From Alphaproteobacteria bacterium MarineAlpha3_Bin2 (GTDB lineage: Bacteria > Pseudomonadota > Alphaproteobacteria > Rhodospirillales > Casp-alpha2): a DNA stretch of 34,503 bases. Where the stretch lies: contig PTLL01000016.1 of assembly GCA_002938315.1 (NCBI GenBank), forward strand, positions 1 to 34,503. Reading direction: 5' to 3'. The translations under genes were made by a program, and so were the position numbers. The notes under the pieces were generated by a model. That model made no database searches, was not told the origin of the DNA, and saw only the letters and a program-made list of their open reading frames with translations. Positions within the stretch are counted from its first letter, which is position 1. Each line of letters starts with the position of its first letter. This document shows, one piece after another, positions 8,529-32,004 of this stretch.

Positions 8529-8551
8529 GCCGTCAGCCCTTTGACATAGGG

Positions 8552-9235
8552 TTACACATGGAAATCGTTGGCGCCTTGTGCGAATTGGGTGATCCAATAG
8601 ACTTGAGATCCGATGGCGCCCGCCGGAACCAGAACCCAGGTCACATCAAAGACCGCCAGCACCAAAACGATAAAACAAAAATCCGCTCGTGTCAGTTCAC
8701 GGAAGATGTACAAGGCCCAATCGCTGAGACCTTCCGGCACACGGTAGGTTTCTCCGGTTTTTCCGGCAGCCCATTCCTCCTCTGACTCGGCAGCGGCTTT
8801 ATCACGAGCGTCCAGGATAAATACAAGAATGTAATTAATGGTGCCGCCGGCGGCTGCCACCATCCCCATCCAGAACCATAACTCGTTGTCGAATCGAGCC
8901 GCTGCGCCAATGCCGAGACCGGCAAACAAAGCCGTATGGACCACCCAATCGACGAAGGTATCAAAGCGCATGCCGAAGGTCGAACACTGGTCCTTGAGCC
9001 GGGCGATTTCACCGTCGCAATTGTCCAAAATATAGGTGATCACGAACAGCGCCCCGGCGGCAATATCCGCGCCCGGTGTGCCCAGCGTCACACACCAGGC
9101 CGCGGCCAGCCCCGTAACCATGGAAGCGGTGGTAATCATATTGGCCGACACGGGTAAGCGCATAAAGACAGGGGTGGCGAATTTCGACAAATGCCGGATC
9201 AGGGGAAACAACGGGGTATTGACGGTGGCATTCAT
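8552..9235 (-). CDS. CDP-alcohol phosphatidyltransferase, membrane-bound
   Basis: A 227-residue membrane protein with an intact CDP-alcohol phosphotransferase signature: Asp71, Asp74-Gly75, Ala78-Arg79, Gly88, Asp92 and Asp96 (DNCDGEIAR ... FGMRFDTFVD). Such enzymes displace CMP from a CDP-linked substrate with an alcohol, forming phosphodiester lipids or osmolytes. The alcohol and CDP partner cannot be read from the sequence. It is not an obvious PgsA or PssA. It sits between hpnN (3-nt gap) and hpnL (23-nt gap), so it should be co-expressed with hopanoid transport genes. It is more distant from the two small paralogues at 12687-13880 than they are from each other. Confidence 0.9.
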   Translation of the reverse strand: MNATVNTPLFPLIRHLSKFATPVFMRLPVSANMITTASMVTGLAAAWCVTLGTPGADIAAGALFVITYILDNCDGEIARLKDQCSTFGMRFDTFVDWVVHTALFAGLGIGAAARFDNELWFWMGMVAAAGGTINYILVFILDARDKAAAESEEEWAAGKTGETYRVPEGLSDWALYIFRELTRADFCFIVLVLAVFDVTWVLVPAGAIGSQVYWITQFAQGANDFHV

Positions 9236-9238
9236 GGC

Positions 9239-11893
9239 TTATCCGTTTCTATTCCGTCCGGTCACCGTCATTAACGCCGGCAAAACAACAAGGGTGCACC
9301 CCAGCGACAAGGCTATAGCAATGGTCAACAACACGCCCATCGACGACGTTCCCGGATGGGAAGACAATGCAATACTGCCGAAGGAACCGATGGTGGTCAA
9401 AGCGCTAAACAAAACCGCCCTCGGCGTCGATGTTTCCAATACCCCATCAATTCCGCTTTCCTCACGATCTCGGACCACCAAATGAATGCTCCCCGCAACA
9501 CCGAGGCCGAACAATAACGGCAGCACGATGACATTGGCAAAATTGAATGGAAGACTGAACACAACCGACGCCGCCACCGTCAGCATCGCCGCCAGGGCCA
9601 ACGGCACGAACACCAGAACCACGTCCCGGAACCGCTGCAGGACGACGATCAAAATCAACGCAATCAGTACCACCGAGACTATTCCCGCCTGCCAAAATGC
9701 ACGAACAACTGTATTTCCCGCCTCCAGGATGACCACCGAAGAGCCCGTCGCATCAGGGGTGACAGTCCTGACGGCGGCGACAAAACGGGCTAGAGCTTCG
9801 CGGTCGCGCAGGTCGTGTTTCGGGAACGCCTCGACCTTGGCCCTACCGTCGGCGGCGATCTGATTACCCCTTATCGCTACAGGTAACGTCGCCAGGCTCA
9901 CCGGCCCAGCCAGCAGCGCCTGATTAAGCGCCACTAGACGACCCGGCAACGCCGTCAGCAGCCGTTTCTCGAATTCCTTGAGGGCGTCTTCCCCTTGAAT
10001 GCCCTTCATCGCCAGGGACAGGCGCTGCGCCGCCTGCTTTGCCGGTGCATCGCCCGGCAATTGGGCAAGCGCCTTAAGCTTATCCAGGAAACGGTCAAGT
10101 GCCGCGCCGCGTTGCTCCGCCGAAGGCGGCGCGGCTGTCCCTTTGGCGGCGAAGGCCGGGGCTAAAAATAGCGCCATCGAAGAAATGACCTCCAGTTTCT
10201 CGCCTTGGTTGGTGGGGACGTAATCCGTCAGGGTCGCAGCGTCATCGACCTCGGGCAGGGTTTTCAGTTTATCGGCCAGACCCATCGCCATATTCAGGTC
10301 GCGGCTGAGAACGGTGACGGTATAGGGGCTATTGCGGTTATCGGCCATCAGGTCGAACAGCGTGGCTACGGATTCTGTTTTGGAATCCTTCAAGTTCAGC
10401 GGGTCGAAATCGAACGCCGCCTTCGGCAGCATCAAGGCCGAGCCGATCCCTAAGGCCAGGGCCGTCCAGCAAACGGCACGGCTGTTGCGCCGGATGAAGG
10501 ACTGAAACGCCGGACCCAAAGAAGTGGGTCGGACGGGCTTATCTGTGGTCCCGGCCCCGGCTTTTACATGGGTTTTCGGCATCACCGTCAACATCGCCGG
10601 CAGCACCGTCATGTTGGCGAACAGGGCGATGAACATACCGGTCCCAGCGATCAACCCAAGTTCGGCGAGGCCTAAGTAATCGGTCGGCAGGAACGAATAG
10701 AACGCAATGGCGGCGCTGACGGCGCATAGGGTCAGCGCACCGCCGACCTGGTTGGCCGCTTCGCCGAGGGCCAGGGCATGAACTTCGCCCCGCCGCCTGG
10801 ATTCTTGATACCGAAGCCCGTAGTGAATCCCGAAATCGACGCTCAGGCCGATAAACAATACGGCGAAGGCAACGGATATCAGGTTGAGCGTGCCCAGCGC
10901 CAAAATCGCGAATGCCGCCGTCCATACCAGACCCATCACCAACGTTACCAGGGTGGCGATGACCAGGCGAGATGAGCGAAGCCCAACCATCAACAAGCTG
11001 ATCACCAGGACCAAGGATACCGCCCCGGCCAGCCCCATACCCTTCTCGACGCTTTTCAGTTCCTCATGGGACAGCGCCGCCGACCCGGTCAGCCGCACCC
11101 TGACACCCTTTTCCGGGGTCAGGCCCAAGCCAATCGCTGCTTCGCGAACACCGTCCATGGCATCGGCCGCAGGGGACAACGATGCAAAATCCAGGGCCGG
11201 CTGGATCACTAGAATTCGGCGGTTGGCGATCTCATTGTCTTTTTCAGCGGCATCGCCGGACATTAATGCCTGCCACGACAGCTGCGCGAATTTCCCCACC
11301 GTTTGCGCCATGGCGACGTCGGTGATGGCGTCCAACACGCCGGCGATTTCGATAGGCTGGGCGGGTGTCTCCTTGAGAGCCTCATCGGCGGCCATATTCA
11401 GCATCTTGAACAACCCGACAAGACTGGGGTCGCGCCACAGTGTGCCCAAGAACGGCTGCGCCTCGGCCAACCGATCGCTGAGGTCGTAAAGGTCTTCCAG
11501 GTCCAAAAACAAAAAACCGTTGCGGCGGAAAAAATCACTGCCGGCCGGATCATCGACACGGCCGAACAAATTCGGCCGTTGGCGCAAGCGGGCGGCGAGC
11601 GCACGGGCTGCGTCATCGGCGATATCCGGGGTCACACCATCAATGACGACGACCAAATTGTCGGAGAATTGCGGAAAGGCCCGGCTCACCACCTCGCTGT
11701 TGCGGCGGAAGTCCAAATCCGGCGACAGCATGTCCTCGGTATCGGTGTTGATACGGACATTTTCAGCCAGGAACACCCCGGCACCGAGCGTGGCAACCAC
11801 CGACGCCACCACCACCAGCCCGGCGAGGCGGCTAACACCGGCGGTCCAACAAACAAGGGCGCGGCGGTAAGCTTGGGAAAAGACACCAAACAT
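9239..11893 (-). CDS. hpnN: HpnN, hopanoid-associated RND/MMPL-type transporter
   Basis: Starting at the ATG at 11893 (in-frame alternative at 11938) gives 884 residues, normal for HpnN. There are two MMPL halves. Each has an extracytoplasmic domain and a bundle of five or six helices; the first bundle is around residues 270-440 (VSLVLVISLLMVGLRSSRLV, GLSVDFGIHYGLRY) and the second is after about 720. The N-terminal helix is followed by a periplasmic domain with DTEDMLSPDLDFRRNS. HpnN moves hopanoids to the outer membrane in characterised alphaproteobacteria. It leads the unit with the CDP-alcohol transferase and hpnL. Upstream is a repeat-rich patch and an OxyR relic, so its promoter may be rearranged. 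Confidence 0.92.
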   Translation of the reverse strand: MFGVFSQAYRRALVCWTAGVSRLAGLVVVASVVATLGAGVFLAENVRINTDTEDMLSPDLDFRRNSEVVSRAFPQFSDNLVVVIDGVTPDIADDAARALAARLRQRPNLFGRVDDPAGSDFFRRNGFLFLDLEDLYDLSDRLAEAQPFLGTLWRDPSLVGLFKMLNMAADEALKETPAQPIEIAGVLDAITDVAMAQTVGKFAQLSWQALMSGDAAEKDNEIANRRILVIQPALDFASLSPAADAMDGVREAAIGLGLTPEKGVRVRLTGSAALSHEELKSVEKGMGLAGAVSLVLVISLLMVGLRSSRLVIATLVTLVMGLVWTAAFAILALGTLNLISVAFAVLFIGLSVDFGIHYGLRYQESRRRGEVHALALGEAANQVGGALTLCAVSAAIAFYSFLPTDYLGLAELGLIAGTGMFIALFANMTVLPAMLTVMPKTHVKAGAGTTDKPVRPTSLGPAFQSFIRRNSRAVCWTALALGIGSALMLPKAAFDFDPLNLKDSKTESVATLFDLMADNRNSPYTVTVLSRDLNMAMGLADKLKTLPEVDDAATLTDYVPTNQGEKLEVISSMALFLAPAFAAKGTAAPPSAEQRGAALDRFLDKLKALAQLPGDAPAKQAAQRLSLAMKGIQGEDALKEFEKRLLTALPGRLVALNQALLAGPVSLATLPVAIRGNQIAADGRAKVEAFPKHDLRDREALARFVAAVRTVTPDATGSSVVILEAGNTVVRAFWQAGIVSVVLIALILIVVLQRFRDVVLVFVPLALAAMLTVAASVVFSLPFNFANVIVLPLLFGLGVAGSIHLVVRDREESGIDGVLETSTPRAVLFSALTTIGSFGSIALSSHPGTSSMGVLLTIAIALSLGCTLVVLPALMTVTGRNRNG

Positions 11894-11944
11894 GATGCCG
11901 CGCTTATAGCCCCGTTGTGGGCAAGGGAACAAGGACATGGAGAC

Positions 11945-12006
11945 CGGGTAAGGGCATCACCCGGCGCAGGCTCATATCCCGGCCCCCTTTCCCCTGCCCT
12001 TACCCG
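11945..12006. repeat. Intergenic 12-bp inverted repeat
   Basis: CGGGTAAGGGCA at 11945-11956 pairs perfectly with TGCCCTTACCCG at 11995-12006 across 38 bases, within C/G-rich intergenic sequence between hpnN and the OxyR relic. It resembles the dispersed palindromic spacer elements seen between genes in many alphaproteobacteria. It reads into the 3' end of the OxyR fragment, so its insertion may have altered that end. Confidence 0.5.
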
Positions 12007-12686: not shown

Positions 12687-13301
12687 ATGAAAAGCCCGCC
12701 TTGGGACCAACGCCTTGCAAGGGTTCTCGTTAAACCCCTGGTCAAGTCGCCGGTGACGCCGAACCAATTGACCATCTTCACGCTAATGATCGCGCTCGGC
12801 GGTGCCGGGTTGTTGGCGACGGGCGACGCCGCCGATGCCAACTGGGGCGCCGGGCTGTTCGTGCTGGCCCGGTTCATGGACCATTTCGATGGCGAATTGG
12901 CGCGGCAAAAGCAGATGACATCGCGGCTCGGCTATTACCTGGATTATATCTCCGGCGCCCTCAGCTACGGCGCGTTGTTTCTGTGTTTGGGGATCGGCTT
13001 CATGCATTCCGGCCTCGGCAATTGGGCTTTGGCGCTGGGCCTAGCCGGCACCGCGTCGGCGGTAATTTCCATGTTCACCAACCTCGGCATCGACCAGCAG
13101 CTAGATCTAGAGAACGACGCCGACCACGATGCCGTCGGCTATCCCGGTTTCGCCGGCTTCGAGCTGGAAGACGGCATCTACCTGATCGCACCGATTACCT
13201 GGTTTGGCTACTTGCAGCCGTTTTTCGTCCTCGCTGGCATCGGCGCCGCGGTCTACTGCCTGTGGACGTGCTGGACCTTACTGCGGCTCCGCCGCGCGTA
13301 A
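12687..13301 (+). CDS. CDP-alcohol phosphatidyltransferase-like protein with altered motif
   Basis: A 204-residue membrane protein with SPVTPNQLT near residue 21 and the CDP-alcohol phosphotransferase signature DHFDGELAR ... LGYYLD. Asp65, Asp68-Gly69, Ala72-Arg73, Gly82 and Asp86 are present. The fourth aspartate, the proposed catalytic base, is Gly90 (GGC at 12954-12956); its neighbour on the other strand has Asp90 at the identical position. It is the same length and pattern as that neighbour, so the two are paralogues. It overlaps the neighbour's 3' end by 24 nt in convergent orientation. It may be inactive, use another base, or work as a partner subunit. Its alcohol substrate is unknown. 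Confidence 0.85.
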   Translation: MKSPPWDQRLARVLVKPLVKSPVTPNQLTIFTLMIALGGAGLLATGDAADANWGAGLFVLARFMDHFDGELARQKQMTSRLGYYLDYISGALSYGALFLCLGIGFMHSGLGNWALALGLAGTASAVISMFTNLGIDQQLDLENDADHDAVGYPGFAGFELEDGIYLIAPITWFGYLQPFFVLAGIGAAVYCLWTCWTLLRLRRA

Positions 13302-13880
13302 CTGCCGCCAGTACATCACGAAAAACAACAATGCCGCCAGCGGCGCGATGACAGCGGCGGCGGTGAGCAAGCCGTCAGCTATGCCCAGCCAGACAAACAC
13401 CGGGATCAGCAGCACCGCGTCATCGGCATCAAATCCGCCGAGGCTGGGCAATTCGGCGGCGCGGTGGCCACCCATCTCCTCCATCCGCATCACCATCCAC
13501 AGGATCACCGCCACCGACAGGCCGGCCAAAACGCCCATGGGGATCGACCACTCCCCCCCTTCCCTGAGGCCGATGCCGAGACCGATCAGGATCAAGGCAT
13601 TGCAAACAGCATCGGCGATCATGTCATAGCGATGACCGCCGGGACTGGTTTTTCCGGTCAGTCGCGCTAGGTCGCCGTCGGCCCGGTCAAGCACTACCGA
13701 CAACACGAAAACGCCCGCGGCGATACCCTGCCAGGCGGGACCAATAGCCATGATCCCGGCGGCGGTGAGACCCGCCAGCAGGCGCGCCGTGGTCAGTTGA
13801 TTGGGGGTCACCGGTGTTCCCGCCAGGGGTTTGACCACCGTCGGGCGGACCATGCGGTGTATCCAGGTGTTGTGGCTCAT
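13278..13880 (-). CDS. CDP-alcohol phosphatidyltransferase of the phosphonate operon
   Basis: A 200-residue membrane protein with TPVTPNQLT and a complete CDP-alcohol phosphotransferase signature: Asp65, Asp68-Gly69, Ala72-Arg73, Gly82, Asp86 and Asp90. Its ATG overlaps the ppd stop in an ATGA junction, so it is translationally coupled to phosphonopyruvate decarboxylase and the PEP mutase-nucleotidyltransferase. In that setting its likely donor or product is a CMP-activated phosphonate joined to a lipid alcohol. That is inference from operon structure and from known nucleotidyl activation in phosphonate pathways. It could instead make an ordinary phospholipid. It converges on, and overlaps, its motif-altered paralogue. 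Confidence 0.88.
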   Translation of the reverse strand: MSHNTWIHRMVRPTVVKPLAGTPVTPNQLTTARLLAGLTAAGIMAIGPAWQGIAAGVFVLSVVLDRADGDLARLTGKTSPGGHRYDMIADAVCNALILIGLGIGLREGGEWSIPMGVLAGLSVAVILWMVMRMEEMGGHRAAELPSLGGFDADDAVLLIPVFVWLGIADGLLTAAAVIAPLAALLFFVMYWRQLRAAEPQ

Positions 13881-15031
13881 GAGGTGAGGAAATCCTTAAA
13901 CCGTAACGCCACCTCGGCCGGGGTCACGGTCGGGCGGCCCAGGTCCTTCATCGATCCCGGTTCGATGCGCATATGGATCAGGTGTGGGCCGGGTTCCTTT
14001 TGGGCCATCGCCAGTGCCTGCGTAAAACCGTCGGCGCCGTCGCACTTTAAGCCACGGGCGTAACCGCAATCGGCGGCGACGGCGGCAAAATTCACCGAGC
14101 CGGACACCGTTGGCTGACCGCCGGTGGAATCGTAGGTGCCGTTGTCGAGAACGATATGAACCAGATTGGTCGGCGCATAGGCGCCGATGGTCGCCAGCGT
14201 CCCCATTTTCATCATCGCGGCGCCGTCGCCGTCCAACACCACCACCGGCTTGTCCGTATTTAAGGCGACGCCCAACCCCATGCCCGCGGCACAGCCCATG
14301 GAGCCGACTTGATAGAGGTGTTGGCGCCGGTCGGCAATGGTAAAAAGCTCACGTCCGCATTTACCGGTGGTGGCGATGATCCCGGTATCCTCGGACACCG
14401 TTGAAAGCACCAATTCCATTGCCTGATAACGCGTCATCGCCGCGCCTTGGCCGGAATAATCAGACGCTTCACCAGCGACGCGGGCCGGCGGCGCCATCAT
14501 CTCGTCGCCGCCCCCGTCTTTAGCAACATCGTTACTAACGTCGCCTTTTTGCATGATGAAGGCGAACGGCAGCCCGGTGCTGTCCATTTCGGCCAGGGCT
14601 TCTTCGATCGCCGCCGGGGCGTTCGCCGCATCCGCCGGAAACGGCCGGTGCGGGACCTCCATCAGTTTCAATAGATCGGGCGTGATCCGGCCCATCAATT
14701 CGTGTTGGGGCTCATCCTTCAGCCCCGGCCCGGCCCGCCACGTGACCACCATCAGGGTCGGAATCCGGAACGGATAATTCAGCGATGTGATCGGATTGAC
14801 GGCGTTGCCCAAACCTGAGTTCTGACAAATGACGGCGGTCCGGTGCCCGGCCAACCAGGCCCCGGACGCAATCGCCACCGCCTCACCCTCGCTGGCGGCA
14901 CCGACATAGGAGAGATGTGGAGAGACGATGGCGCCATTGATCAGCGGCGTCAGAAAGGAACACGGAACACCGGTAAAAAAATCGATGCCGGCGGCAAATC
15001 CCCGATCAAGGAATTCGGCGGCGGCGATCAC
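13877..15031 (-). CDS. ppd: Phosphonopyruvate decarboxylase
   Basis: The open frame extends upstream to 15082, but the GTG at 15031 overlaps the pepM stop as GTGA and the family homology begins right after it, giving 384 residues, the usual size. The enzyme is thiamine-diphosphate dependent and converts 3-phosphonopyruvate to phosphonoacetaldehyde, making PEP mutase chemistry irreversible. Visible features are TGVPCSFL near the start, [14 protein letters not shown] with the cofactor-activating Glu, NSGLGN, and the diphosphate-binding [10 protein letters not shown] followed by [11 protein letters not shown]. It is the middle gene of pepM - ppd - CDP-alcohol transferase, with 4-nt overlaps on both sides. 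Confidence 0.93.
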
Positions 15032-16689
15032 AGGAAATTGCCGGCCTTGGTGATGTCGGCGGCGTCGTCTACATCCAGCCATTGGCCGGGAACGTAAATC
15101 ACCCGGATGGAAGTACCTTTTTCCGCTAACCGCGCGAACAAATCCGGCAGACTCATTTTCGGCAGGCTACCGTCCTTGCCCATAGCGGCGATTTCGTCGC
15201 ACACTAGCTGGCTCCCCTTGGCGCTGAGCTTAGCGACACCGATCCATTCGCCATCAACCTCGGCGGGATCGAGATCGTTGCCGATGCGGCGCAGGCTCAC
15301 CGGATCGTCATCCAAATAGTCACCGGAAAACGGCCGCGAGCACTGGATCAGGTCACGGACCCAACCGTCAGCATCGGAATTGCGTTCCTTCCACAGGGCA
15401 TCCACCAGCACCGTAATGTCGTCTTCGGCGGCCAACAGCTGATCGAGATAATATTGGCGGAACAGGATGTCGCCGTAGGAAATGATGCAATCCCCCTGGA
15501 TATGGTCTATGGCGGCGGAAAGGCTGGCGACTTCGCCGGTATTGTCGAAAAGGTCATTGTCGACGGTGGTGATCGACGGCAGGTTGATCTGCTCTTTCTT
15601 ATAGCCGCGAACGACGGCGATATCCTGGACGCCGGAATCCTTGAACGTCTTGACCAGACGCGACAGCAGCGGCTTGCCCCGGACATCGATCATGCATTTC
15701 GGCTTGTCCTCGGTCAGTGCGCCTAACCGGGCGCCTCGGGATGCGGCTAGAATGACGGCGTTTGGCTTTTGGCCTTGTTGAGGCAGGTAGCGTTTTTCGG
15801 CCTCGGCCAGTTCGTCATTTCCGGTCAGTTCGAACACTTCCTTGACCAAGACCATATCGCCATCCACACCGGCCAGGCTTTGTTCGCGAAATATCCGGCG
15901 CGAGGTTTCGCGCATCACGGTAATGGCGGCACGAAGATTGTGGTTGGCCCAGATGGCGACGGAAATCCCGGCCTTGCGGAAATCATCGGTCGGGGTGCGG
16001 AAGTATTTGGTCGGCACGATGACGATAGGGCACCGGCCCGCCCATTCCTTGGCGAAGGCATCGATTTCATCGGGGGTGGAAAGTTTTGAATGAACCAGCA
16101 CCGCATCGGCGCCGGCGGCATGATAGGCCTCGGCGCGCCTCAACGCTTCATCGAGGCCGCGCCCGGCGATAAACGCCTCCAGGCGGGCAACGATGGAAAA
16201 ATTCGGGTCGGTCTGGCTGTCCTTGCCGGCTTTGATCTTGCCGCAAAACTCGTCCATGTCGGCCAGGGGCTGACCTTCACCGATAAAGGAATTGGTTTTG
16301 GGAAATAATTTATCCTCGATACAAATCCCGGCGATGCCGCGCTGGCAAAGCTTGGAAACAGCCCGGCGCATGTTGTTGAAATTGCCCCAACCGGTATCGC
16401 CATCGACCAGGATCGGCACATTGGTAGCATCGGCCATAAATTCCAACACATCCATGATCTGGGTCCATGACGCTTCGTTGTTGTCGCGAACGCCCAAGGC
16501 CGCCGACATCGAAAGCCCGGATGCCCAAATGCCCTTGAATCCGGCCTCTTCGACAATTTTCGCAGACAAGCCGTTGTGGGCTTCCATCAGGAATTCCAGT
16601 TCCGGCGACGTCAACATGGCGCGCAACTGCTCCGTTTTGGTCAAAGACGGAAGTGGGTTTGTTTGGTTTCGGCTGGGCGCTTCGCGCAT
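15028..16689 (-). CDS. pepM: PEP mutase fused to nucleotidyltransferase (phosphonate activation)
   Basis: The ATG at 16689, with AAGGA upstream, gives 553 residues; the frame is open to 16776. Residues about 25-290 are phosphoenolpyruvate mutase, with VDGDTGWGN and the diagnostic EDKxxxxxNS (Glu125-Ser134), which separates mutases from isocitrate-lyase-type relatives. Residues about 310-553 are a sugar-phosphate-type nucleotidyltransferase: [34 protein letters not shown] and a C-terminal WLDVDD. The first half makes phosphonopyruvate from PEP. The second half probably transfers CMP onto a downstream phosphonate, as in described PepM-PntC-type fusions. It begins the three-gene coupled operon and diverges from the PhyH oxygenase gene. 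Confidence 0.93.
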
Positions 16690-16731
16690 TGAAATGGTCC
16701 TTACTATTCGTACATTTGTTTTGGTGGGGGC

Positions 16732-16760
16732 ATATAACTCTTGTTTCCCTGTCGGTTCAA
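16732..16760 (-). promoter_or_regulatory. Candidate sigma-70-type promoter for pepM
   Basis: On the minus strand TTGAAC (16760-16755) is separated by exactly 17 bases from TTATAT (16737-16732). This would place a transcript start about 35 nt before the pepM ATG at 16689. The spacing is ideal and the hexamers are partial matches. It lies in the divergent pepM/PhyH spacer. Confidence 0.4.
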
Positions 16761-16832
16761 GACGGCGTTGATGCATAGCCCCTCTCGGATTAGTATCCCC
16801 TCGCCTTTTTATACAAGCCCCAAGGAACTTTT

Positions 16833-17591
16833 GTGCTGAACACGCCGATCCTTAGCGAAGAACAGATTGAGACGTTCGAGCGCGATGGTTATTTGATCGT
16901 CAGCCAAGCCTTCACTCCCGATGAGGTGAAGCGCATCGAAACCTGGACCCAGGAACTGGTGGCGCTCCCGGAAGAATCGGGAAAACACTGGGTTTATCAT
17001 GAAAAGAGCCTGAAGGGTGACGATGCCGACCTGATCAGCCGGATTGAAAATATCGTGCCGTTTCACGATGGGTTCGAGAAACTTAGCACGGTGCTGAAAG
17101 GCCCCGTCGGCCAGCTTCTTGGCGAGGAAGCAGCATTGTTCAAAGAAAAAATTAATTTCAAGATGGCCGGTGGTGACGGGTTCAAGCCGCATCAGGATTC
17201 ACAGGCCGGATGGGATTCCTATGCCGATTTCTTCATCTCCGCCCTGGTCAGCATCGATGAGGCGACGGTTGAAAACGGCTGCCTACAGCTGGTCAACGGT
17301 CACCACAAACGGGGCTTGTTTAAATCCTGGGAGCCGTTGACCGAAGACGATATGGCCGATATGGAGTTCGTGCTGTGTCCGACCAAACCGGGCGACATTA
17401 TCTTTTTCGATTGCTACGCGCCGCATGCTTCGGAACCCAATTTGACCGACCAGACCCGACGCCTTTATTACGCCACCTATAATCGGTTGTCGGAAGGCGA
17501 TCATCTGGCTCAATACTACGCCGACAAACATAAGAATTACCCCCCCGACATCGACCGCGAGCCCGGCAAAGATTACGTGTTCAGAGTCTGA
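16833..17591 (+). CDS. PhyH-family Fe(II)/2-oxoglutarate dioxygenase
   Basis: A 252-residue protein starting at a GTG with AAGGA 7 nt upstream. The iron ligands are visible as HQD (His120, Asp122) and the distal PHASEPN (His198), with Arg209/Arg210 placed to bind 2-oxoglutarate. The block [17 protein letters not shown] resembles phytanoyl-CoA-dioxygenase relatives, including the phosphonate hydroxylase PhnY*. Because it diverges from pepM, hydroxylation of a phosphonate is the likely job, for example the carbon next to phosphorus. The substrate is inferred, not shown. It is followed after 21 nt by a DMT transporter gene and is likely co-transcribed with it. Confidence 0.85.
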
Positions 17592-17612
17592 AGATACCGA
17601 GCCGCTGACGCC

Positions 17613-18452
17613 ATGGACCCCTTCGTATTTTCCCTGGTCCTGGCCGCAGCCATCTTGCACGCTAGCTGGAACGCGCTGCTCAAAAGCGGTGGCGACCCCT
17701 GGGTGCGCATGGCCCTAACCAACATTATCGGCACGGGGTTCGGGCTGGCCATGCTGCCCTTTGTCGAATTTCCCAATGCCGAAGCCTGGCCGTTTATCTT
17801 CGGCTCCATCGCCGTTCACCAGATTTATTTTGTCACGGTATGCCTGCAATACCGATACGGCGACCTGTCCCATGTTTATCCCATCTCGCGAGGGATTGCG
17901 CCCATATTGGTCGCCATCGGAGCCTTCATTTTCGTCGGTGAGACCCTTCCACCCCTCGGCATCGTCGCCGTTGTCATCATATCCACCGCCATCATCAGCC
18001 TGACTTTCTCCTCCACCTGGAAGCCGGGCGAAGGCAAGGGCGTTCTTTTTGCGCTGATGACCGGCGGCACCATCGCCATGTATACGGTGATTGATGGACA
18101 AGGCGGGCGGCAGGCCCACGATATTGCCGGTTACATCGCCTATTTGTTTCTCCTAGACGCTTTGCCCTTCGGAATGCTGGTCTGGTATATGCGCCGGCAC
18201 GAACTGTTCTCGGCACTCAAGGCCAACTTTAAATCCGGCGTGCTTAGCGGGGCACTATCCTTTCCCGCCTATGCACTGGTTATCTGGGCCATGAGCCTGA
18301 GCCCGCTAACCTATGTATCGGCGTTACGGGAAACCAGCGTAATCCTGGCGGTGTTGATTGGCACCCGGCTATTAGGCGAACCCTTCGGCGCCCGGCGCAT
18401 CATCACCGCCACCGCCGTCGCCGCCGGGGTGATATTATTGCAGGTCAGCTAG
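17613..18452 (+). CDS. DMT-superfamily (EamA) membrane transporter
   Basis: A 279-residue protein with about ten transmembrane helices arranged as two EamA repeats. The first begins at FVFSLVLAAAILHASWNALLKSG and the second near GVLFALMTGGTIAMYTVIDG. EamA transporters export or import small metabolites; the substrate cannot be read from sequence. It follows the PhyH gene by 21 nt, so a product or intermediate of the phosphonate locus is a reasonable candidate cargo. Its last 8 bases overlap the 3' end of the convergent nucleotidyltransferase gene. Confidence 0.85.
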   Translation: MDPFVFSLVLAAAILHASWNALLKSGGDPWVRMALTNIIGTGFGLAMLPFVEFPNAEAWPFIFGSIAVHQIYFVTVCLQYRYGDLSHVYPISRGIAPILVAIGAFIFVGETLPPLGIVAVVIISTAIISLTFSSTWKPGEGKGVLFALMTGGTIAMYTVIDGQGGRQAHDIAGYIAYLFLLDALPFGMLVWYMRRHELFSALKANFKSGVLSGALSFPAYALVIWAMSLSPLTYVSALRETSVILAVLIGTRLLGEPFGARRIITATAVAAGVILLQVS

Positions 18453-19227
18453 CGGCTTTTTCGCCGAGGCTTTCCAGGATTCGGGGCATAATGACCTCTT
18501 CCGCAAAGGTCACGTCGGCGAGGAAATCGATTTCAGTCCACGGAATTCCGGTGACGTCCTCAAAATTGAAAGTTCCCACAGGTTCCGATTTCAGCACGTC
18601 GCGCATCGCGTCCTCATAGGGTGCGGTCAGGTCGTCTTTATCAATACGGGCCTGGACGGCGTCAGCGACCTTGACGGCAATCCCTGGGGACATCCGCATG
18701 AAACCGGGCCATTCGCCAATGGTGTGGTAGTCATCAGTGACCAGCTTGCCGAAATCTATGAGATCACCGTCACGGAGGCACAATTTTACCGGCTCGTCTC
18801 CGTCTTCGAATTCGTAATCCAAGGTGAAGCAGTTCGGATGGCGGGAATGAATTAGCCGGGCTAGGACGTCCGGGTGGTACAGAACGTCGGCGTCCATGAA
18901 CATGACATCATCGCCGCTTCGCAGCACTTCATCGGCGGAATATAGCGACAGCAGGCCGCTTTCCTTATAGCGCGGGTTGAATATGGTGCGCACAAAGTCT
19001 TTCGGGCCCCCCAAGCCCTCCAGAATGGCATCGACCTCGGCCATAAGGTCCTCCTTGCGGTGACCGATCACCAACACAAGCTCATTGATGCCGTTGTCGA
19101 AAAGGCACTCCATATGGCGGGCTATAAGCGTCTTGCCGCCGAAACGGAGTATTGCCTTGGGCAGGTGATTGTTTTCGTCGCCGTGAAGACGCCTTCCGAC
19201 TCCGGCGGCGAGCATGACCACTTTCAT
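18445..19227 (-). CDS. Nucleotidyltransferase (LicC/PntC-like), stand-alone
   Basis: A 260-residue single-domain NTP transferase. The nucleotide-binding loop is LAAGVGRRL (residues 6-14) followed by LPKAIL with Lys24, then GGKTLIARHM and the metal-binding FMDADVL. A late Glu/Asp pair (PWTEIDFLADV) matches the WxDxD-like end of cytidylyltransferases such as LicC. It should activate a phosphate- or phosphonate-bearing small molecule with CTP or another NTP. It is the second such domain in the window besides the PEP mutase fusion. It lies 71 nt downstream of hpnA on the same strand and could be co-transcribed with it. The substrate is unknown; phosphocholine, phosphoethanolamine, a sugar phosphate or a phosphonate are all possible. 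Confidence 0.85.
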   Translation of the reverse strand: MKVVMLAAGVGRRLHGDENNHLPKAILRFGGKTLIARHMECLFDNGINELVLVIGHRKEDLMAEVDAILEGLGGPKDFVRTIFNPRYKESGLLSLYSADEVLRSGDDVMFMDADVLYHPDVLARLIHSRHPNCFTLDYEFEDGDEPVKLCLRDGDLIDFGKLVTDDYHTIGEWPGFMRMSPGIAVKVADAVQARIDKDDLTAPYEDAMRDVLKSEPVGTFNFEDVTGIPWTEIDFLADVTFAEEVIMPRILESLGEKAAS

Positions 19228-19298: not shown

Positions 19299-20288
19299 TT
19301 AGGGAACATATCCATTATCCCGAAACCACTGGACGGCATCGGCAAGGGCGTGCGCCGCGGGCCGGGGCGTATATCCCAATTCCTTCGCGGCAAGCATGTG
19401 GGTAAAGAACATCTTCTTCTTGGCCATCTTAAGCCCGTCGGTGGTGGCGAAGGGCTCGGTGCCGCCGCTTAGCCGGGCCCAGGTTTCGGCCACCAACGCG
19501 AAGGGCATGATCAAATTATGGGGGATTTTAAGGCGCGGCGGCCTGCCGCCGGTGATCTCGGCGAGGGCGCCAAGAATCTCTTTCAGCGACATATTCTCTC
19601 CGCCGAGAATATAGCGTTTTCCCACGTCTCCTTTATCGAAGGCCAGCAGGTGACCTTCCGCGACGTCATCCACATGAACCACATTGAGCCCGGTATCAAC
19701 GTAGGCCGGCATCCGTCCGGAAGCCGCCTCGACGATCATCCGCCCGGTCGGCGTCGGCTTGATGTCGCGCGGCCCGATGGGCATTGACGGATTGACAATC
19801 ACCACCGGCAGGCCTTGGCTTTTCACCAGTTCCCGGACTTCGGCCTCGGCCAGGAACTTGGATTGCTTATAAGGCCCGATCATGTCGGTGAATTGGACCG
19901 GGGTGTCTTCGTCCGCCGCACCTTCGCCCGGCACTGTGCCTAAGACCGCCACGGACGACGTATAGACAATACGCTCCACCCCGCATTCGCCGGCCGCCAG
20001 CATCAGGGATCGGGTGCCGTCCACGTTGGCCTTGAACATCGGTTCCGGCTTCGGCGCCCAGAGGCGATAATCGGCGGCGACATGGAACAGGCCGGCGCAG
20101 CCCCGCAAGGCGGGCTTAAGGCTGTCCGGTTCATGCAAATCGCCCTCGACGACCTCAACATCAAGGCCATCCAGATTTCGCCGATCGCTGGACGGTCGCA
20201 CCAAGGCGCGAACCTCTAGGCCGCGACTGACCAATTTGCGCAAAATCGCAGAGCCGACAAATCCGGTGGCGCCGGTCATAAAAATCAT
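19299..20288 (-). CDS. hpnA: HpnA, hopanoid-associated NAD-dependent epimerase/dehydratase
   Basis: A 329-residue extended short-chain dehydrogenase. The NAD(P)-binding TGATGFVG is at residues 5-12, the catalytic serines lie in [11 protein letters not shown], and the Tyr-Lys pair is in GPYKQSKF. The C-terminal [10 protein letters not shown] motif is shared by HpnA proteins. It acts in hopanoid side-chain or sugar metabolism; the exact reaction is not firmly established. It is divergent from ispH-hpnH with a 123-bp AT-rich spacer that must contain both promoters. The nucleotidyltransferase lies 71 nt downstream. Confidence 0.9.
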
Positions 20289-20411: not shown

Positions 20412-21404
20412 GTGGATAAAATCTACCGTATGGCATCGAAAAAGAAGAAAAAATTAGACGTTTGGCTGGCCAGTCCGCGTGGATTTTGCGCCGGCGTTGA
20501 ACGCGCCATTGAAATCGTCGAACGCGCGTTGGAACTTCACGGGCCGCCAGTCTATGTGCGACACGAAATCGTTCACAACAAACGGGTGGTCGAAACCTTG
20601 CGTGACAAAGGCGCCGTCTTCGTCGAGGAAGTCGACGATATTCCGGATGGCGCGGTGACCATTTTCAGCGCCCATGGAGTCGCCGAAAAAATCGAGATCG
20701 AAGCCAAAAATCGTGGCCTGCCGGTCATCGACGCCACCTGTCCCTTGGTCTCCAAGGTCCACAAGGAAGGCCAGAACCACGCCAAAAAGGATCGCCAGGT
20801 CATCTTGATCGGCCATGAAGGCCATCCTGAGGTCGAAGGCACCCAAGGCCGCATTCCCGGTGGAGTCCTGTTGGTGACCAAGCCCGAGGATGTCGCCGGG
20901 CTCAAGGTCCGAAACCCGGATATGCTCGCCTATGTCACCCAGACGACCTTGAGCGTCGATGAAACCCGCGACGTGATCGAAGCGTTGAAAGCCCGTTTCC
21001 CGAATATCATCGGTCCCGACGTCAAGGACATCTGTTATGCCACCCAAAACCGCCAGCAAGCGGTGCGCGATCTTTCCGAACACGTTGATCTGCTGCTAGT
21101 AGTCGGCGCGACCAACAGTTCCAATTCCAACCGGCTCAGGGAAATCGGATCGGAACTGGGCATCCCCAGCTACCTGATCGACGACGCCGAAAATTTCGAC
21201 CCCTCCTGGCTGGACGGCGTCAATATCGTCGGTGTATCGGCCGGTGCTTCCGCGCCCGAGGAATTGATCCAGGAAGTGATCGAACGCCTTAGCGAATTCT
21301 GCGATGTCAAATTGAAGAAGTTGGACGGGGTCGAGGAAAACATCACCTTCAAGTTACCCCGCGAACTAATAGACGCGGAGCGCAATAACGCTTCCGCCAT
21401 CTGA
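20412..21404 (+). CDS. ispH: 4-hydroxy-3-methylbut-2-enyl diphosphate reductase
   Basis: A 330-residue IspH; the GTG at 20412 is used here, and an ATG at 20430 (MASKKKKK) is an equally plausible start. The three iron-sulfur cysteines are Cys26 (GFCAGV), Cys110 (DATCPLV) and Cys208 (DICYAT). Active-site residues appear in HEIVHNK, SAHGV and [11 protein letters not shown]. It makes isopentenyl and dimethylallyl diphosphate from HMBPP in the last step of the MEP pathway. It is 15 nt upstream of hpnH, placing precursor supply in the same transcript as hopanoid side-chain extension. Confidence 0.96.
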
Positions 21405-21419
21405 AAGAACTCACCCTCT

Positions 21420-22586
21420 ATGTCCATTCCCTTAATACAGAAAATTCGGGTCGGGTCCTACATCATGGGCCAGCGTCTCAAGGGCGTTGAAAAATACCCG
21501 CTGGTTTTGATGCTGGAACCTTTGTTCCGCTGTAATTTAGCGTGTTCCGGTTGCGGCAAGATCGACTATGAGGACGACATTCTCAACAAACGCCTCAGCG
21601 TCCAGGAATGCTTGGAGGCGGTTGATGAATGCGGGGCGCCAATCGTTTCCATCCCCGGCGGCGAGCCGTTGATCCACAAGGAAATTGTTGGAATCGTCGA
21701 AGGCATCACGGCGCGCAAGAAGTTTGTCTATTTATGCACCAATGCCTTGTTGCTGGAAAAAAAGCTGGATGAATTCACGCCGTCGGATTATTTGACCTTT
21801 TCCGTGCATCTGGACGGCCTGGAAGAACACCACGACCGCGCCGTTGACCAACCGGGAACCTTCAAACGCGCCGTCTCCGCCATTCGAGCGGCCAAAGCCA
21901 AAGGATTTCGAGTAAACGTCAACTGCACCCTGTTCGACCAAATGAACGCCGACGAGGCCGCCGAATTTTTCAATTTCGCCAGCAACGACCTTAAGGTCGA
22001 AGGCATTACCATTTCGCCGGGATACGCATACGAACGCGCCCCCAACCAAGAGCATTTCCTGAACAGGACCAAAACCAAGCAGTTGTTCAGGGATATTTTT
22101 AAACGCCAGGGGAACAATAAATGGCAATTCTCCCAGTCGGTCCTGTTCATGGATTTTCTGGCCGGCAATCAGCAATACCAGTGCATGCCCTGGGGCAACC
22201 CGACCCGCAACATTTTTGGGTGGCAGCGGCCGTGTTACTTGTTGAGCGAAGGCTACGCCGATAGCTTTGATGCGTTGATGCGGGAAACGCGTTGGGATGA
22301 CTACGGCACCGGGCGGTACGAAAAATGCGCCAATTGCATGGTCCATTGCGGCTATGAGGCGACAGCGGTTACCGATGTCACCTCACATCCCCTAAAAGCC
22401 CTTGGCGTGTTCCTCAAGGGTATTGAAACCGAAAAACCGATGGCACCGGAAATTCCCTTGGACAAACAGCGCCCAGCTGAATTTGTCTTCGAGGGTTTGA
22501 TCAAGACACTCAGCCAAAAAAAGGCCGAGCAAGAAGCCGCCCTAAAGTCCGAACAAGGGGCCAAGACGACCAGCAACGCTGCGTAA
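21420..22586 (+). CDS. hpnH: HpnH, adenosyl-hopene transferase (radical SAM)
   Basis: A 388-residue radical SAM protein with the cluster motif CxxxCxxC (Cys38, Cys42, Cys45) and the SAM-binding GGEPL. A C-terminal cysteine-containing domain follows (QYQCMPWG, RPCYLLSEGY, CANCMVHCGYE). HpnH adds a 5'-deoxyadenosyl group to hopene (diploptene), the first step of the C35 bacteriohopane side chain. It follows ispH by 15 nt. Its last 45 bases overlap the 3' end of convergent hpnG, which encodes the next enzyme in the pathway. Length and motifs are normal. Confidence 0.95.
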   Translation: MSIPLIQKIRVGSYIMGQRLKGVEKYPLVLMLEPLFRCNLACSGCGKIDYEDDILNKRLSVQECLEAVDECGAPIVSIPGGEPLIHKEIVGIVEGITARKKFVYLCTNALLLEKKLDEFTPSDYLTFSVHLDGLEEHHDRAVDQPGTFKRAVSAIRAAKAKGFRVNVNCTLFDQMNADEAAEFFNFASNDLKVEGITISPGYAYERAPNQEHFLNRTKTKQLFRDIFKRQGNNKWQFSQSVLFMDFLAGNQQYQCMPWGNPTRNIFGWQRPCYLLSEGYADSFDALMRETRWDDYGTGRYEKCANCMVHCGYEATAVTDVTSHPLKALGVFLKGIETEKPMAPEIPLDKQRPAEFVFEGLIKTLSQKKAEQEAALKSEQGAKTTSNAA

Positions 22587-23219
22587 GGAAATAAGCGCCC
22601 TTTTGCTGTCGCTTTTCAACCTAAACAAACCGGGTACTTCCCAAGGATGCATAGCCAGCCCGGCAAGGATGGCTCCATAACTGGGGGTGCCGTTTTCAGA
22701 AATTTTCCCCGTAACCCAGGCCGGGATGGCGCGGCTGGCAGGATCGGCGACGGCCCTAATTGCCAGAAACAGAATCCCGGCCTCCTCGGCGGCGGCGGCA
22801 ACGGCATGGCTTTCCATATCGACGAGGGCGGCGTCCCATTTCTCTGCCAGATTCAGCTTTGCCTCAGGCGTCGAGACAACCTTGTCGGACCCGGCGATGG
22901 TAGCAATGGTAGCCCCTTCGCCGAGGATCTCCCTGACACCTTCCAACCATGGCTTCGACGTTTCAAATGCCTGCCCCGCCGGGCTGACGACCTTTGACGC
23001 TATGATCAGGTCGCCCGGCACCAAATCTGGCCTCAACCCTCCCGCCAAACCGAAGCTCAACAAAGCCTGACAGCCGTCCTTGATCATTTCCTGTGACAAA
23101 TTATAGGCCCGTTGTGTCCGAGCGGCGGCGCAACCCACATACGGACGGTCGTCGATTGGAAATACATCCAGGCAATCGGCTTCTTGTGCCAGCCCGGTAA
23201 TGACTCCCAGGCGTCCCAC
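22542..23219 (-). CDS. hpnG: HpnG, adenosylhopane nucleoside phosphorylase
   Basis: The open frame reaches 23396, but it overlaps shc. The GTG at 23219, four bases after the shc stop, fits the family start (GRLGVITGL) and gives 225 residues. Phosphorylase-superfamily motifs are LSFGLAGGL and VDMESHAVA. HpnG removes adenine from adenosylhopane to give (phospho)ribosylhopane. It is the last gene of the large minus-strand hopanoid operon. Its 3' end overlaps hpnH by 45 nt on the opposite strand. Confidence 0.92.
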   Translation of the reverse strand: MGRLGVITGLAQEADCLDVFPIDDRPYVGCAAARTQRAYNLSQEMIKDGCQALLSFGLAGGLRPDLVPGDLIIASKVVSPAGQAFETSKPWLEGVREILGEGATIATIAGSDKVVSTPEAKLNLAEKWDAALVDMESHAVAAAAEEAGILFLAIRAVADPASRAIPAWVTGKISENGTPSYGAILAGLAMHPWEVPGLFRLKSDSKRALISLRSVAGRLGPLFGL

Positions 23220-23223
23220 GGGC

Positions 23224-25191
23224 TTAAAGGCCGTATTTAGGAAACTTAGAATTGGTTTTCTTGAGCGAACGATATCTGGATAACGTCCACAGCGGGAAAT
23301 AGGCGCTATAGCCGTGGTAGCGGAGATAGAAAATGCGCGGAAAGCCGACGGCATTAAAATATTCTTCGTGCCAATTGCCGCCGTCGCGCTCTGCATTCAA
23401 CAAATATTCTACACCGCGTGCAACGCTATTACTGTCCACTTCCCCGGCCGCCATCAGGCCCATCAGCGCCCAGGACGTCTGCGACGGAGTGCTGGTTTTT
23501 ACCTCGTCGCGGCGGTACTGCCAATAAGTGGAGCAATCTTCGCCCCAACCACCGTCAGGGCGCTGCACGTATTTCAACCAATCTACGGCTTTGCGGATAT
23601 GGCGGGCCTGCATGTTCTCCCCGGCGGCATTAAAGGCGCACAGAACTGACCAGGTTCCGTAGACATAGTTATTACCCCAGCGACCGAACCAGGACCCCTC
23701 CTTTTCCTGCTCGCTGCGGAGAAACGCCAGCCCCTTGGCCATCACCGGGTGATCTGTTTCATAGCCCAGTTGCGCCAGCATCCCCAAACACCGGGCACTA
23801 ACGTCGGCCGTTGGCGGGTCCAGAAGGGCGCCGTGGTCAGCGAAGGGAAGGTTTTGCAGGAAAAAATGGTTGTTATCGGCGTCGAATGCCCCCCAACCGC
23901 CATTTATGCTCTGCATGCCGATGATCCATTCGGTGCCACGTTCAATGGCTTCGCGGTATTTTTCGGGATCGGCCCGGTGCAGCGCCATGACAACGACGGC
24001 GGTGTCGTCCACATCCGGGTAATAATCATTCCAATATTGGAAAGCCCAGCCCCCGGGACGAACGTGGCCGCGATTGGCGGCCCAATCGCCTTGGACCTCG
24101 AATATTTGGCGCCCGAGCAGCCACTCATTGGCCTTGGCTAGAATCGGATCGTCCTTTGTCAGGCCTGATTCCAACATCGCGTGCGCAGCCAGCCCGGTAT
24201 CCCAGACCGGCGACAGGCAAGGCTGGCAATAGCCCCAGTCATCGCGCAGCACTAAAAGCTTGTCGATAGCTTGGCGGCAAATGACGTAATCGGGATGGTC
24301 CTTCGGGTATTCCAGGGCATCGAAGGCCATCAGGGCATTGGCCATGGCTGGGAAAATTCCGCCCAGACCGTCCTCGCCGTTAAGCCGTTCAGAAATGAAG
24401 TCCACGGCCTTGCTGATGGCTCTGCGTTCCAACCATTTGGGCATTAACGGCTGCACCATCCGGGCGGCGTAATCGACGCCCAGCATCACCCAGCCCAAAA
24501 ACTTGCCGGTTGGATTGGTAAGATAGAATCGATGTTCGTGCGCCGGCTTGACGAATAATTCCCGGATATCGACGCCGTGCTGATTGCGGGCCAGCGGCTT
24601 TAACGCCGCCAAAATTTTCAATGGCACCATCACCGTGCGGGACCAATAGGACACCTTGTTAATGTGAAACGGGGCCCATTTCGGCAACAGCAACGCCTCG
24701 ACGCGGATCACCGGCACCGCCCGCCAAGGAACCTGTCCGAAAAGTGCCAAGGCAAACCGGGTGAAAACGTTGGCCTTGGCGGCGCCGCCATGTTCCAGGA
24801 TAGCCTTGCGCGCCCATCTCATGTAGGGCGCCTCGATGTCCTCGCCGGTCAGCTTGAGAGCGAAATACGCCTTAACCGATGCGCTGAGATTGAAATCACC
24901 GTCATGATATAACGGCCAACCGCCGTGATCGCCCTGGGTTTCCTTGAGATAGGCCGCCAATTTGGATTCGGTATCTTCATCAACCTCATCCAGGTAGTGG
25001 TTTAGCATGATGTACTCAGACGGGATGGTGGCATCGGCTTCCAGTTCGAACGCCCAATGGCCGTCGGAAGCCTGACGATCAGCCAGCCAGGCGCGTGCCT
25101 CTTCGACGACGGCGTCTACTCCGTTTAAATCAAAATCCTTGGAGGCTTTTGACCCGTCTGTGGGGTGTGGGACTACTTCCAACTTGACCAT
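23224..25191 (-). CDS. shc: Squalene-hopene cyclase
   Basis: A 655-residue triterpene cyclase with the protonating DxDD motif as DVDD at residues 393-396. Several QW repeats are present, for example DGHWAFELEAD near 43, GDHGGWPLY near 87, GGWGAFDAD, GSWFGRWGNNYVYGTW and GGWGEDCSTYWQ. It is a monotopic membrane enzyme converting squalene to hopene and hopanol. It lies 101 nt downstream of hpnE and 4 nt upstream of hpnG. The longer gap before it may contain its own promoter. Length and catalytic motifs are all standard. Confidence 0.97.
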   Translation of the reverse strand: MVKLEVVPHPTDGSKASKDFDLNGVDAVVEEARAWLADRQASDGHWAFELEADATIPSEYIMLNHYLDEVDEDTESKLAAYLKETQGDHGGWPLYHDGDFNLSASVKAYFALKLTGEDIEAPYMRWARKAILEHGGAAKANVFTRFALALFGQVPWRAVPVIRVEALLLPKWAPFHINKVSYWSRTVMVPLKILAALKPLARNQHGVDIRELFVKPAHEHRFYLTNPTGKFLGWVMLGVDYAARMVQPLMPKWLERRAISKAVDFISERLNGEDGLGGIFPAMANALMAFDALEYPKDHPDYVICRQAIDKLLVLRDDWGYCQPCLSPVWDTGLAAHAMLESGLTKDDPILAKANEWLLGRQIFEVQGDWAANRGHVRPGGWAFQYWNDYYPDVDDTAVVVMALHRADPEKYREAIERGTEWIIGMQSINGGWGAFDADNNHFFLQNLPFADHGALLDPPTADVSARCLGMLAQLGYETDHPVMAKGLAFLRSEQEKEGSWFGRWGNNYVYGTWSVLCAFNAAGENMQARHIRKAVDWLKYVQRPDGGWGEDCSTYWQYRRDEVKTSTPSQTSWALMGLMAAGEVDSNSVARGVEYLLNAERDGGNWHEEYFNAVGFPRIFYLRYHGYSAYFPLWTLSRYRSLKKTNSKFPKYGL

Positions 25192-25292
25192 GTAGGCCGC
25201 CTAGTTTCCAAATTTCTCAGAAGCACGTTTGGGGAATGCCCGATGCCGTCCCGCCGAAATGCCAATAGACCGTTTGTGTCAAATAAAACCAA

Positions 25293-27406: not shown

Positions 27407-27447
27407 GGGGCTATGGATACACGCAAGTGGCTTCTGCGTCACCCTTC

Positions 27448-29471: not shown

Positions 29472-29496
29472 CAGGGAGACAACCCGAAACGCGCCA

Positions 29497-31993: not shown

Positions 31994-32004
31994 GGGGTTA
32001 GAGC

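Follow-up and report, generated by a model that had tools for sequence, protein, structure and literature searches.

A putative 2-aminoethylphosphonate lipid pathway embedded in a hopanoid locus of Alphaproteobacteria

Hopanoids are major bacterial membrane lipids and biomarkers, and to our knowledge the roles of hpnA, hpnL and the genes next to them are still poorly known. Phosphonolipids carrying 2-aminoethylphosphonate (AEP) occur in bacteria and protozoa, including the 1-hydroxy-AEP sphingolipids of Bdellovibrio/Bacteriovorax; they have on a membrane lipid the same AEP or hydroxy-AEP head group that is proposed here, and we know of no link between them and hopanoids or the gene set described below. 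Likewise, we know of end products for few alphaproteobacterial phosphoenolpyruvate (PEP) mutase genes (pepM) of this kind. Here, a pepM cassette at positions 12687-19227 of contig PTLL01000016.1 of Alphaproteobacteria bacterium MarineAlpha3_Bin2 was analyzed. The window, i.e., the whole stretch of DNA analyzed, is one entire contig (C32, 34,503 bases); the draft genome to which it belongs has 2.27 Mb in 123 contigs. The original prediction, made from the sequence alone, read the cassette as a phosphonolipid pathway inside a hopanoid locus.

The closest described system is the phosphonyl tailoring (Pnt) pathway represented by PntC-AEPT of Treponema denticola. According to the available text of Rice et al. 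(2019, PMC6697681), it shares with the locus and its relatives a PEP mutase (Ppm)-nucleotidyltransferase (NTase) fusion, phosphonopyruvate decarboxylase (Ppd), an AEP transaminase and a second, PntC-type cytidylyltransferase. The present locus differs in having a free-standing PntC-type gene, two or three CDP-alcohol phosphotransferases (CDP-APs), a PhyH oxygenase and a placement within a hopanoid locus. The same text describes clusters in which one NTase is fused to Ppm and another stands apart, so the two-NTase pattern was already known. Linkage of a hopene cyclase gene to a PEP mutase gene was reported in 2021 for Roseomonas as a 'hybrid cluster', with an 'undiscovered terpene-phosphonate' suggested as its product (PMC8776678, available text). 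The same hopanoid-PEP mutase linkage, noted there for Acetobacteraceae, is found here in wider taxa and with a wider gene set; the terms CDP-alcohol, nucleotidyl and PhyH are absent from the main text of that paper. Among the titles and abstract openings of the PMC literature, which leaves subscription papers outside its scope, no earlier report was found of the wide conservation, the PntC assignment or a CDP-AP without the fourth aspartate (D4) of its signature, and 'hopan' is absent from PMC9381506 and PMC8931226. The linkage is thus known for Roseomonas, and its breadth, the PntC assignment and the D4-less transferase (CAPT_B) are apparently new.

The gene identities, motifs, gene order, conservation and co-occurrence observed here point to a Pnt-type AEP phosphonolipid pathway, with AEP possibly 1-hydroxylated, that is coupled to hopanoid metabolism (probability roughly 0.6). 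In this pathway, PepM would convert PEP to phosphonopyruvate, Ppd would convert phosphonopyruvate to phosphonoacetaldehyde, and PhnW, encoded elsewhere in the source genome and within the cassette of some relatives, would convert phosphonoacetaldehyde to AEP. The second NTase (NTP2, 18445-19227) would then form CMP-AEP, from which CAPT_A would transfer the phosphonyl group to a hydroxyl on the face of the membrane, aided by CAPT_B (a partner or a second subunit for acceptor binding), and HpnL/HpnN/HpnM-type proteins would carry the lipid outward. From sequence we infer each of these reactions, that the acceptor is a lipid and that the product is exported, as well as the phosphonolipid itself and any decoration of hopanoids.

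The predicted PepM/Ppd phosphonate synthesis is borne out by matches to TIGR02320 and TIGR03297 over their cut-offs (Table 1) and by the PepM motif EDKxxxxxNS, which is present in the window protein and in all 81 aligned rows (window included). The predicted coupling of the PEP mutase-NTase fusion, ppd and a CDP-alcohol transferase gene also holds, the genes by profile and the overlaps as read from the sequence. The GTG start of ppd at 15031, rather than the upstream ATG at 15082 of the mechanical open reading frame (ORF), lies on the pepM stop (GTGA), and an ATGA overlap joins ppd to CAPT_A. There is no transaminase gene in the window's cassette. In the relatives at loci L072, L064, L070, L071 and L065, PhnW/AepZ genes over curated cut-offs adjoin ppd/pepM or lie in the same cluster, those of L072 and L064 within hpn-linked cassettes, and more loci carry PhnW by label, e.g., L158, L165, L176 and L182. 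Because relatives hold PhnW within the cassette, AEP is most likely the product predicted from these genes. The single PhnW match of the source genome (G000:C102:31223-32278; 467.9 bits, cut-off 360.8) is on contig C102 together with the AEP ABC transporter genes phnS2 (488.7 bits, cut-off 392.75), PhnT2 (513.4, 457.7) and PhnU2 (815, 593.25).

A hydroxyethylphosphonate branch, with the iron-type alcohol dehydrogenase at 30686-31993 as phosphonoacetaldehyde reductase, is not favored, since the gene adjoins Ldh_2 and altronate/galactarate dehydratase genes and relatives have PhnW in the cassette; it scores under cut-off with all the models that fit it best, those of sulfoacetaldehyde/lactaldehyde reductases (PsrA, 100.6 vs 423.7). 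These three genes (30686-34257) are probably a separate sugar-acid module.

To the predicted nucleotidyl activation of the phosphonate the data lend support, with the difference that the likeliest AEP cytidylyltransferase is the separate NTP2 and not the domain fused to PepM. When an NTP2 profile (26 rows) was searched against PDB sequences, T. denticola PntC (6PD1) was matched over almost the whole length at E 1.6e-22, followed by LicC (E 7.2e-16) and inositol-phosphate cytidylyltransferase (IPCT, E 2.5e-11). The predicted structure (predicted local distance difference test, pLDDT, 95) also matched PntC best (6PD1/6PD2; Z 29.7 over 240 residues, 2.3 Å), compared with Z 24.5 for LicC and 24.0 for IPCT-DIPPS; other nucleotidyltransferases came next among the VIA-align matches listed (Z about 22-24). 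The residues aligned to R15, K25, K153 and E196 of T. denticola PntC, whose roles are taken from the available text of Rice et al. (PMC6697681), are present in 48, 48, 49 and 49 of 49 rows, respectively. NTP2, nearest to PntC by sequence and predicted fold, is best matched as a candidate PntC-type CMP-AEP synthase. The NTase domain fused to PepM has the PK lysine in 81/81 rows. At its signature Arg position 350, the window's own protein has Arg, and the 81 rows include Ala (35), Glu (15), Gln (12), Lys (9) and Ser (5); Arg is found at 347 in 78/81, giving an unusual signature A-[ST]-R-G-x-x-L (residues 343-360) with a displaced Arg. Since the signature position is not conserved and the best PDB match is LicC, the case for this domain as the AEP cytidylyltransferase is weakened, and it might act on another substrate.

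The CDP-APs were compared by their signature D1xxD2GxxAR...G2xxxD3xxxD4. CAPT_A keeps D1, D2, G2, D3 and D4 in 67/67 unique sequences, and a third enzyme, CAPT_N, has the full motif in 42/44, the other two being one truncated sequence and one where the pattern fell elsewhere. CAPT_B keeps D1, D2, G2 and D3, and its D4 is Gly in 84, Val in four and Asp in one of 93 unique sequences. Among the five rows with neither Gly nor Val, the Asp row (L071) is CAPT_A-like, the pattern fell on an extended ORF in L199, L200 and L203, and L204 is truncated. For phosphatidylinositol-phosphate (PIP) synthase, D4 is presumed to act as the base, and the D93N variant retains substrate binding with activity nearly abolished (PMC4634129 and PMC6506517, available text). 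CAPT_A and CAPT_B are therefore not equivalent, CAPT_B being without the presumed catalytic base. The loss of D4 in 88 of 93 sequences, together with the D93N result, could mean that CAPT_B is a catalytically dead remnant and that CAPT_A alone matters. We consider this improbable, as CAPT_B is conserved above CAPT_A in both alignments made (57-82% identity to the window protein in 14 others vs 53-70% in 12 others, in differing locus sets) and has many invariant residues, unlike a decaying gene. Because of this better conservation, CAPT_B is probably a working protein. It could serve as a partner, bind the acceptor as a subunit, or be an enzyme that uses a different base. Loci L168, L175, L178 and L196 have two CAPT_B-like genes flanking hpnA, one with Val at D4, and no gene labeled CAPT_A.

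The AlphaFold2 model of CAPT_B (pLDDT 86) has one short N-terminal helix plus six others and aligns with AF2299 (Z 19.9) and PIP synthases (Z 15.5-17), with no other fold family at comparable Z among the VIA-align matches listed. AF2299 and mycobacterial PIP synthase are like CAPT_B in fold, D1, D2, G2, D3 and six helices, and differ from it by keeping D4; the substrates probably differ as well. The extra C-terminal helices of the 10-helix CPT/EPT/CEPT type, which uses a diacylglycerol acceptor, are absent from the CAPT_B model, and CAPT_A has only 200 residues. The six-helix form has been associated with acceptors that are soluble, and additional helices with hydrophobic acceptors of greater bulk (PMC4634129, available text). 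This speaks against a plain reaction of the ethanolamine-phosphotransferase kind with diacylglycerol and would allow a polyol acceptor, for example the side chain of a hopanoid. The original prediction had a nucleotide-activated phosphonate handed to a membrane transferase. Its membrane CDP-alcohol phosphotransferase stands, but a plain 'CMP-phosphonate + diacylglycerol' reaction is not obvious with CAPT_B modeled in the six-helix form. As for the PhyH oxygenase, the Fe/2-oxoglutarate ligands H120, D122, H198 and R209 are present in 45/45 rows and its best NCBIfam match is the methylphosphonate hydroxylase model NF052437, under the curated cut-off (Table 1); as a guess, it may hydroxylate the head group.

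To assess conservation, PepM (TIGR02320, E <= 1e-60) was searched in the source genome's order and found in 81 of 297 genomes. Neighborhoods of at most about 9 kb per side, hand-picked from the listed matches, were fetched for 40 of the 81 (20 of the 22 same-genus and same-family genomes and 20 others of the order) and for 31 of the 42 PepM genomes that the class sample has outside the order. Core hpn genes or hpnA are present in 19/40 of these loci in the order and in 13/31 elsewhere in the class. The first gene labels were best BLAST hits to the window proteins and first-round relatives and were loose; a strict recount by tblastn with the window's own proteins (PhnW from L072), using per-gene identity floors set by the author, left both linkage counts unchanged. 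In the 32 hpn-linked pepM loci, hpnN is present in 29 and NTP2 in 26 by the strict recount (28 with looser labels). Within the order, the arrangement hpnN / CAPT_B> <CAPT_A <ppd <pepM / PhyH> <NTP2 <hpnA / ispH> hpnH> is seen whole or largely over several families, and related arrangements of pepM, ppd, PhnW, NTP2, hpnN and hpnA are also found outside it. The 4-nt overlaps recur in 29/69 (pepM-ppd) and 13/23 (ppd-CAPT_A) unique same-strand pairs of relatives. These repeated gene orders and overlaps rule out a chance neighborhood, and the tie of the cassette to hpn genes is conserved across families.

On the pepM tree, the distribution of linked (42 rows) and unlinked (25 rows) loci takes nine changes, at least eight of them forced by well-supported branches, vs a mean of 20.3 with shuffled labels; 13/80 rows were unscored for too short flanks. 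The pepM-hpn linkage is thus clustered and long-lived, yet was gained or lost several times. One run of pepM, ppd, hpnN-like, hpnL-like, NTP2 and CAPT_A genes (L225/L235, G420:C6) is without other hpn genes, and the cyclase of that genome is on another contig.

A scan for CAPT_B, not exhaustive because it was based on two short peptide patterns, gave 80 loci. By the strict recount, 58 have core hpn genes, 41 have pepM, ppd or PhnW, 33 have both and eight have an AEP gene without hpn genes. The loose counts (59, 43 and 34 of 80) were slightly high, some 'pepM-NT' labels (e.g., L112 and L136) being antisense frames over PhyH. The named CAPT_B loci are mostly from metagenome-assembled genomes filed under Rhodospirillales, Rhodospirillaceae, Alphaproteobacteria or Proteobacteria, with three from Candidatus Rokubacteria. 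The latter (L198-L200) are unusable as a case of the same pathway in another phylum, as the 'PhnW' of L198 has no more than 26.6% identity and all three are without hpn or AEP genes by the strict recount.

The linkage extends to whole genomes. In the class sample, PepM at E <= 1e-95 is present in 44/385 genomes, of which 41, covering 20 families, have squalene-hopene cyclase. Overall, the cyclase is found in 79/298 sampled genomes and, in the genomes taken by handle numbers as belonging to both samples, in 31/32 with PepM vs 48/266 others; these counts, like the Fisher p-values calculated for the class and order samples, ignore relatedness. The three PepM genomes without cyclase (G495, G611 and G615) have short PepM frames (438-452 aa). 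Since the cyclase accompanies PepM in so many families, the PepM-NTase of Alphaproteobacteria behaves nearly like a subset trait of hopanoid makers. In the order sample, HpnH is found in 74/81 PepM genomes vs 98/216 others. Of the seven without HpnH, G122 and G179 have the cyclase and five have none: G037 and G067 have short PepM (434-439 aa), G072 and G211 are under the PepM cut-off, and G156 is 82% complete with a 556-aa frame. CAPT_B is matched at 1e-30 in 96 genomes and at E <= 1e-80 in 67, of which 49 have PepM and 59 have PhnW.

Several observations weigh against an AEP phosphonolipid pathway tied to hopanoids. pepM is not beside hpn genes in 21/40 and 18/31 of the fetched loci. Among the 80 CAPT_B loci, an AEP gene is missing from 25 that do have hpn genes, and 14 show genes of neither kind, many of these contigs ending early; 18 of the 67 genomes with strong CAPT_B are without a PepM match at 1e-60, 14 of these having PhnW. 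The hpn loci L107, L109, L117 and L119 hold CAPT_A, CAPT_B, PhyH and NTP2 without pepM/ppd. NTP2 has Asp112, an Asp in 49/49 rows as in LicC, at the position of Glu104 in T. denticola PntC; CAPT_A and CAPT_B are like CDP-APs that use soluble acceptors; and the PhnW of the source genome belongs to an AEP-import, probably catabolic, operon. In other hpn loci (L106, L108, L111, L112 and L118), ppd is present without pepM. In close relatives, an internal deletion of pepM in L105 (G171:C1, 8526-8852) and its whole loss in L106 (G159:C8, near 8804-9076) leave ppd and the rest in place, with assembly error possible. pepM is located elsewhere in the genomes of L109 (G005) and L108 (G060). As CAPT_A, CAPT_B, PhyH and PntC-like genes stand at hpn loci without pepM and ppd, the phosphonate would be not obligatory or supplied from elsewhere; because many loci stop at contig edges, gene absences are lower bounds. 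The pepM-less loci fit AEP scavenging, supply in trans or cut contigs, but a different head group is possible too. Such a head group would be an ordinary phosphate one (phosphoethanolamine- or inositol-type) made by a CAPT_A/B-NTP2-PhyH core, with pepM, ppd and PhnW as lineage-specific insertions and the CAPT proteins using CDP-diacylglycerol, in line with the core standing alone, the resemblance of the CDP-AP folds to PIP synthase and AF2299, and the IPCT match of NTP2. This seems unlikely, given that PntC is clearly the closest match of NTP2, that genomes with CAPT_B tend to have PepM and PhnW as well, that the best model for PhyH, although it scores under the cut-off, is that of a phosphonate hydroxylase, and that translational coupling of pepM-ppd-CAPT_A can occur.

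Alternatively, AEP may go to a cell-surface glycan or lipid A, and a common role in the outer membrane would account for the adjoining hopanoid genes. The available text of Rice et al. (2019, PMC6697681) gives cell-wall phosphonoglycans or phosphonolipids as the predicted destination of most phosphonate clusters, and MlaA/MlaC-like genes are close by. Nevertheless, a Pfam scan of the seven window proteins of 12687-19227 found no glycosyltransferase or LicD-type transferase, the transferases being CDP-alcohol phosphotransferases, and we rate a glycan or lipid A target as less likely still. If the product is an AEP phosphonolipid, its acceptor could be a hopanoid itself, AEP being esterified to the hydroxylated side chain of an extended (bacteriohopanetetrol-like) hopanoid that HpnN/HpnL would carry. 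Such a phosphonohopanoid is suggested by the position of the cassette between hpnN and hpnA in several families, the frequency of hpnN and NTP2 at linked pepM loci, the near confinement of PepM to hopanoid makers, the modeled six-helix CDP-AP, which may suit a polyol over diacylglycerol, and the 'terpene-phosphonate' guessed in the earlier survey (PMC8776678, available text). It is nonetheless a doubtful identification, as co-localization may come from shared regulation or shared transport and pepM is often away from hpn genes in hopanoid makers. Equally tentative is the fuller idea of a new lipid class, in which (hydroxy-)AEP would be put on a hopanoid polyol by a CAPT pair, one member without the Asp base, and exported by HpnL/HpnN, as a trait widespread in Alphaproteobacteria, in which some lineages would scavenge AEP rather than synthesize it.

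The surroundings agree with the original prediction in most respects. The PhyH oxygenase, the DMT transporter, the second transferase and the second NTase are all present by profile matches, and hopanoid genes lie on both sides, hpnL/hpnN on one and hpnA on the other. The named genes of its inventory stand, with the third CDP-alcohol phosphotransferase (CAPT_N) overlooked and the ppd start now corrected. On the minus strand, pepM-NTase is followed by ppd and CAPT_A; PhyH and the EamA transporter are on the plus strand, and NTP2, on the minus strand, is followed by hpnA. CAPT_B is convergent to CAPT_A with a 24-nt overlap, and on its far side are hpnN, CAPT_N, hpnL and then MlaC/MlaA-like genes. 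The hopanoid-locus set of shc and hpnC, D, E, G and H is complete in the window, HpnG alone of these being under its cut-off.

Table 1. Genes of the phosphonate cassette and the adjoining hopanoid locus (window coordinates; bit scores with curated cut-offs where given)
Feature	Coordinates	Strand	Basis
pepM-NTase fusion (PEP mutase, residues ~51-321; C-terminal MobA-like nucleotidyltransferase, ~338-582)	15028..16776	-	TIGR02320, 377 bits (cut-off 319.55); PF13714; PF12804 (NTP_transf_3)
ppd, phosphonopyruvate decarboxylase	13877..15031	-	TIGR03297, 428.8 bits (cut-off 312.5)
CAPT_A, canonical CDP-alcohol phosphotransferase, 200 residues	13278..13880	-	PF01066 (CDP-OH_P_transf)
CAPT_B, CDP-alcohol phosphotransferase fold, D4 to Gly, 204 residues	12687..13301	+	PF01066
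PhyH-type Fe/2OG dioxygenase, related to PhnY*-like methylphosphonate hydroxylase	16833..17591	+	PF05721; NF052437, 169.9 bits (under cut-off 500)
EamA/DMT transporter, related to TIGR03340 (phosphonate-associated membrane protein)	17613..18452	+	146.7 bits (under cut-off 288.15)
NTP2, second NTase, PntC-like cytidylyltransferase, candidate CMP-AEP synthase	18445..19227	-	Profile, predicted structure and conserved catalytic Arg/Lys/Lys
hpnA, hopanoid-associated epimerase	19299..20288	-	TIGR03466, 492.9 bits
hpnN, hopanoid RND-like transporter	9239..11938	-	TIGR03480, 994.9 bits
CAPT_N, third CDP-alcohol phosphotransferase between hpnL and hpnN, canonical motif	8552..9235	-	PF01066
hpnL, flippase-like membrane protein	7539..8597	-	TIGR03476, 157.5 bits (under cut-off 195.65)
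Remaining hopanoid block: ispH, hpnH, hpnG, shc, hpnE, hpnD, hpnB, hpnC, HpnM-like	20412..30138		NCBIfam; HpnG 185.3 (cut-off 187.1) and HpnM 101.8 (cut-off 160.1) fall short

Three HpnM/MlaC-like genes and one MlaA gene are located around the hopanoid block (window 6240-6854, 6908-7537, 29497-30138 and 5064-5978), and MlaA and rpoH neighbors are seen again in the loci of relatives. Beside rpoH in the window is an (R)-SAM hydrolase-like gene (2944-3693, minus strand; NF058624, 187 bits, under cut-off 350). Upstream of CAPT_B, a LysR-type regulator fragment (11972-12376, minus strand; substrate-binding domain, 46.3 bits, profile 130-208 of 209) resembles a gene remnant.

In summary, conserved genes for a carbon-phosphorus head group within a hopanoid block suggest an undescribed membrane lipid. 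A CDP-AP without D4 would raise a mechanistic question that is new for this large family of enzymes, and the conserved physical and phylogenetic tie between pepM and hopanoid genes gives a testable route to a new lipid and to a possible source of lipid-bound phosphonate.

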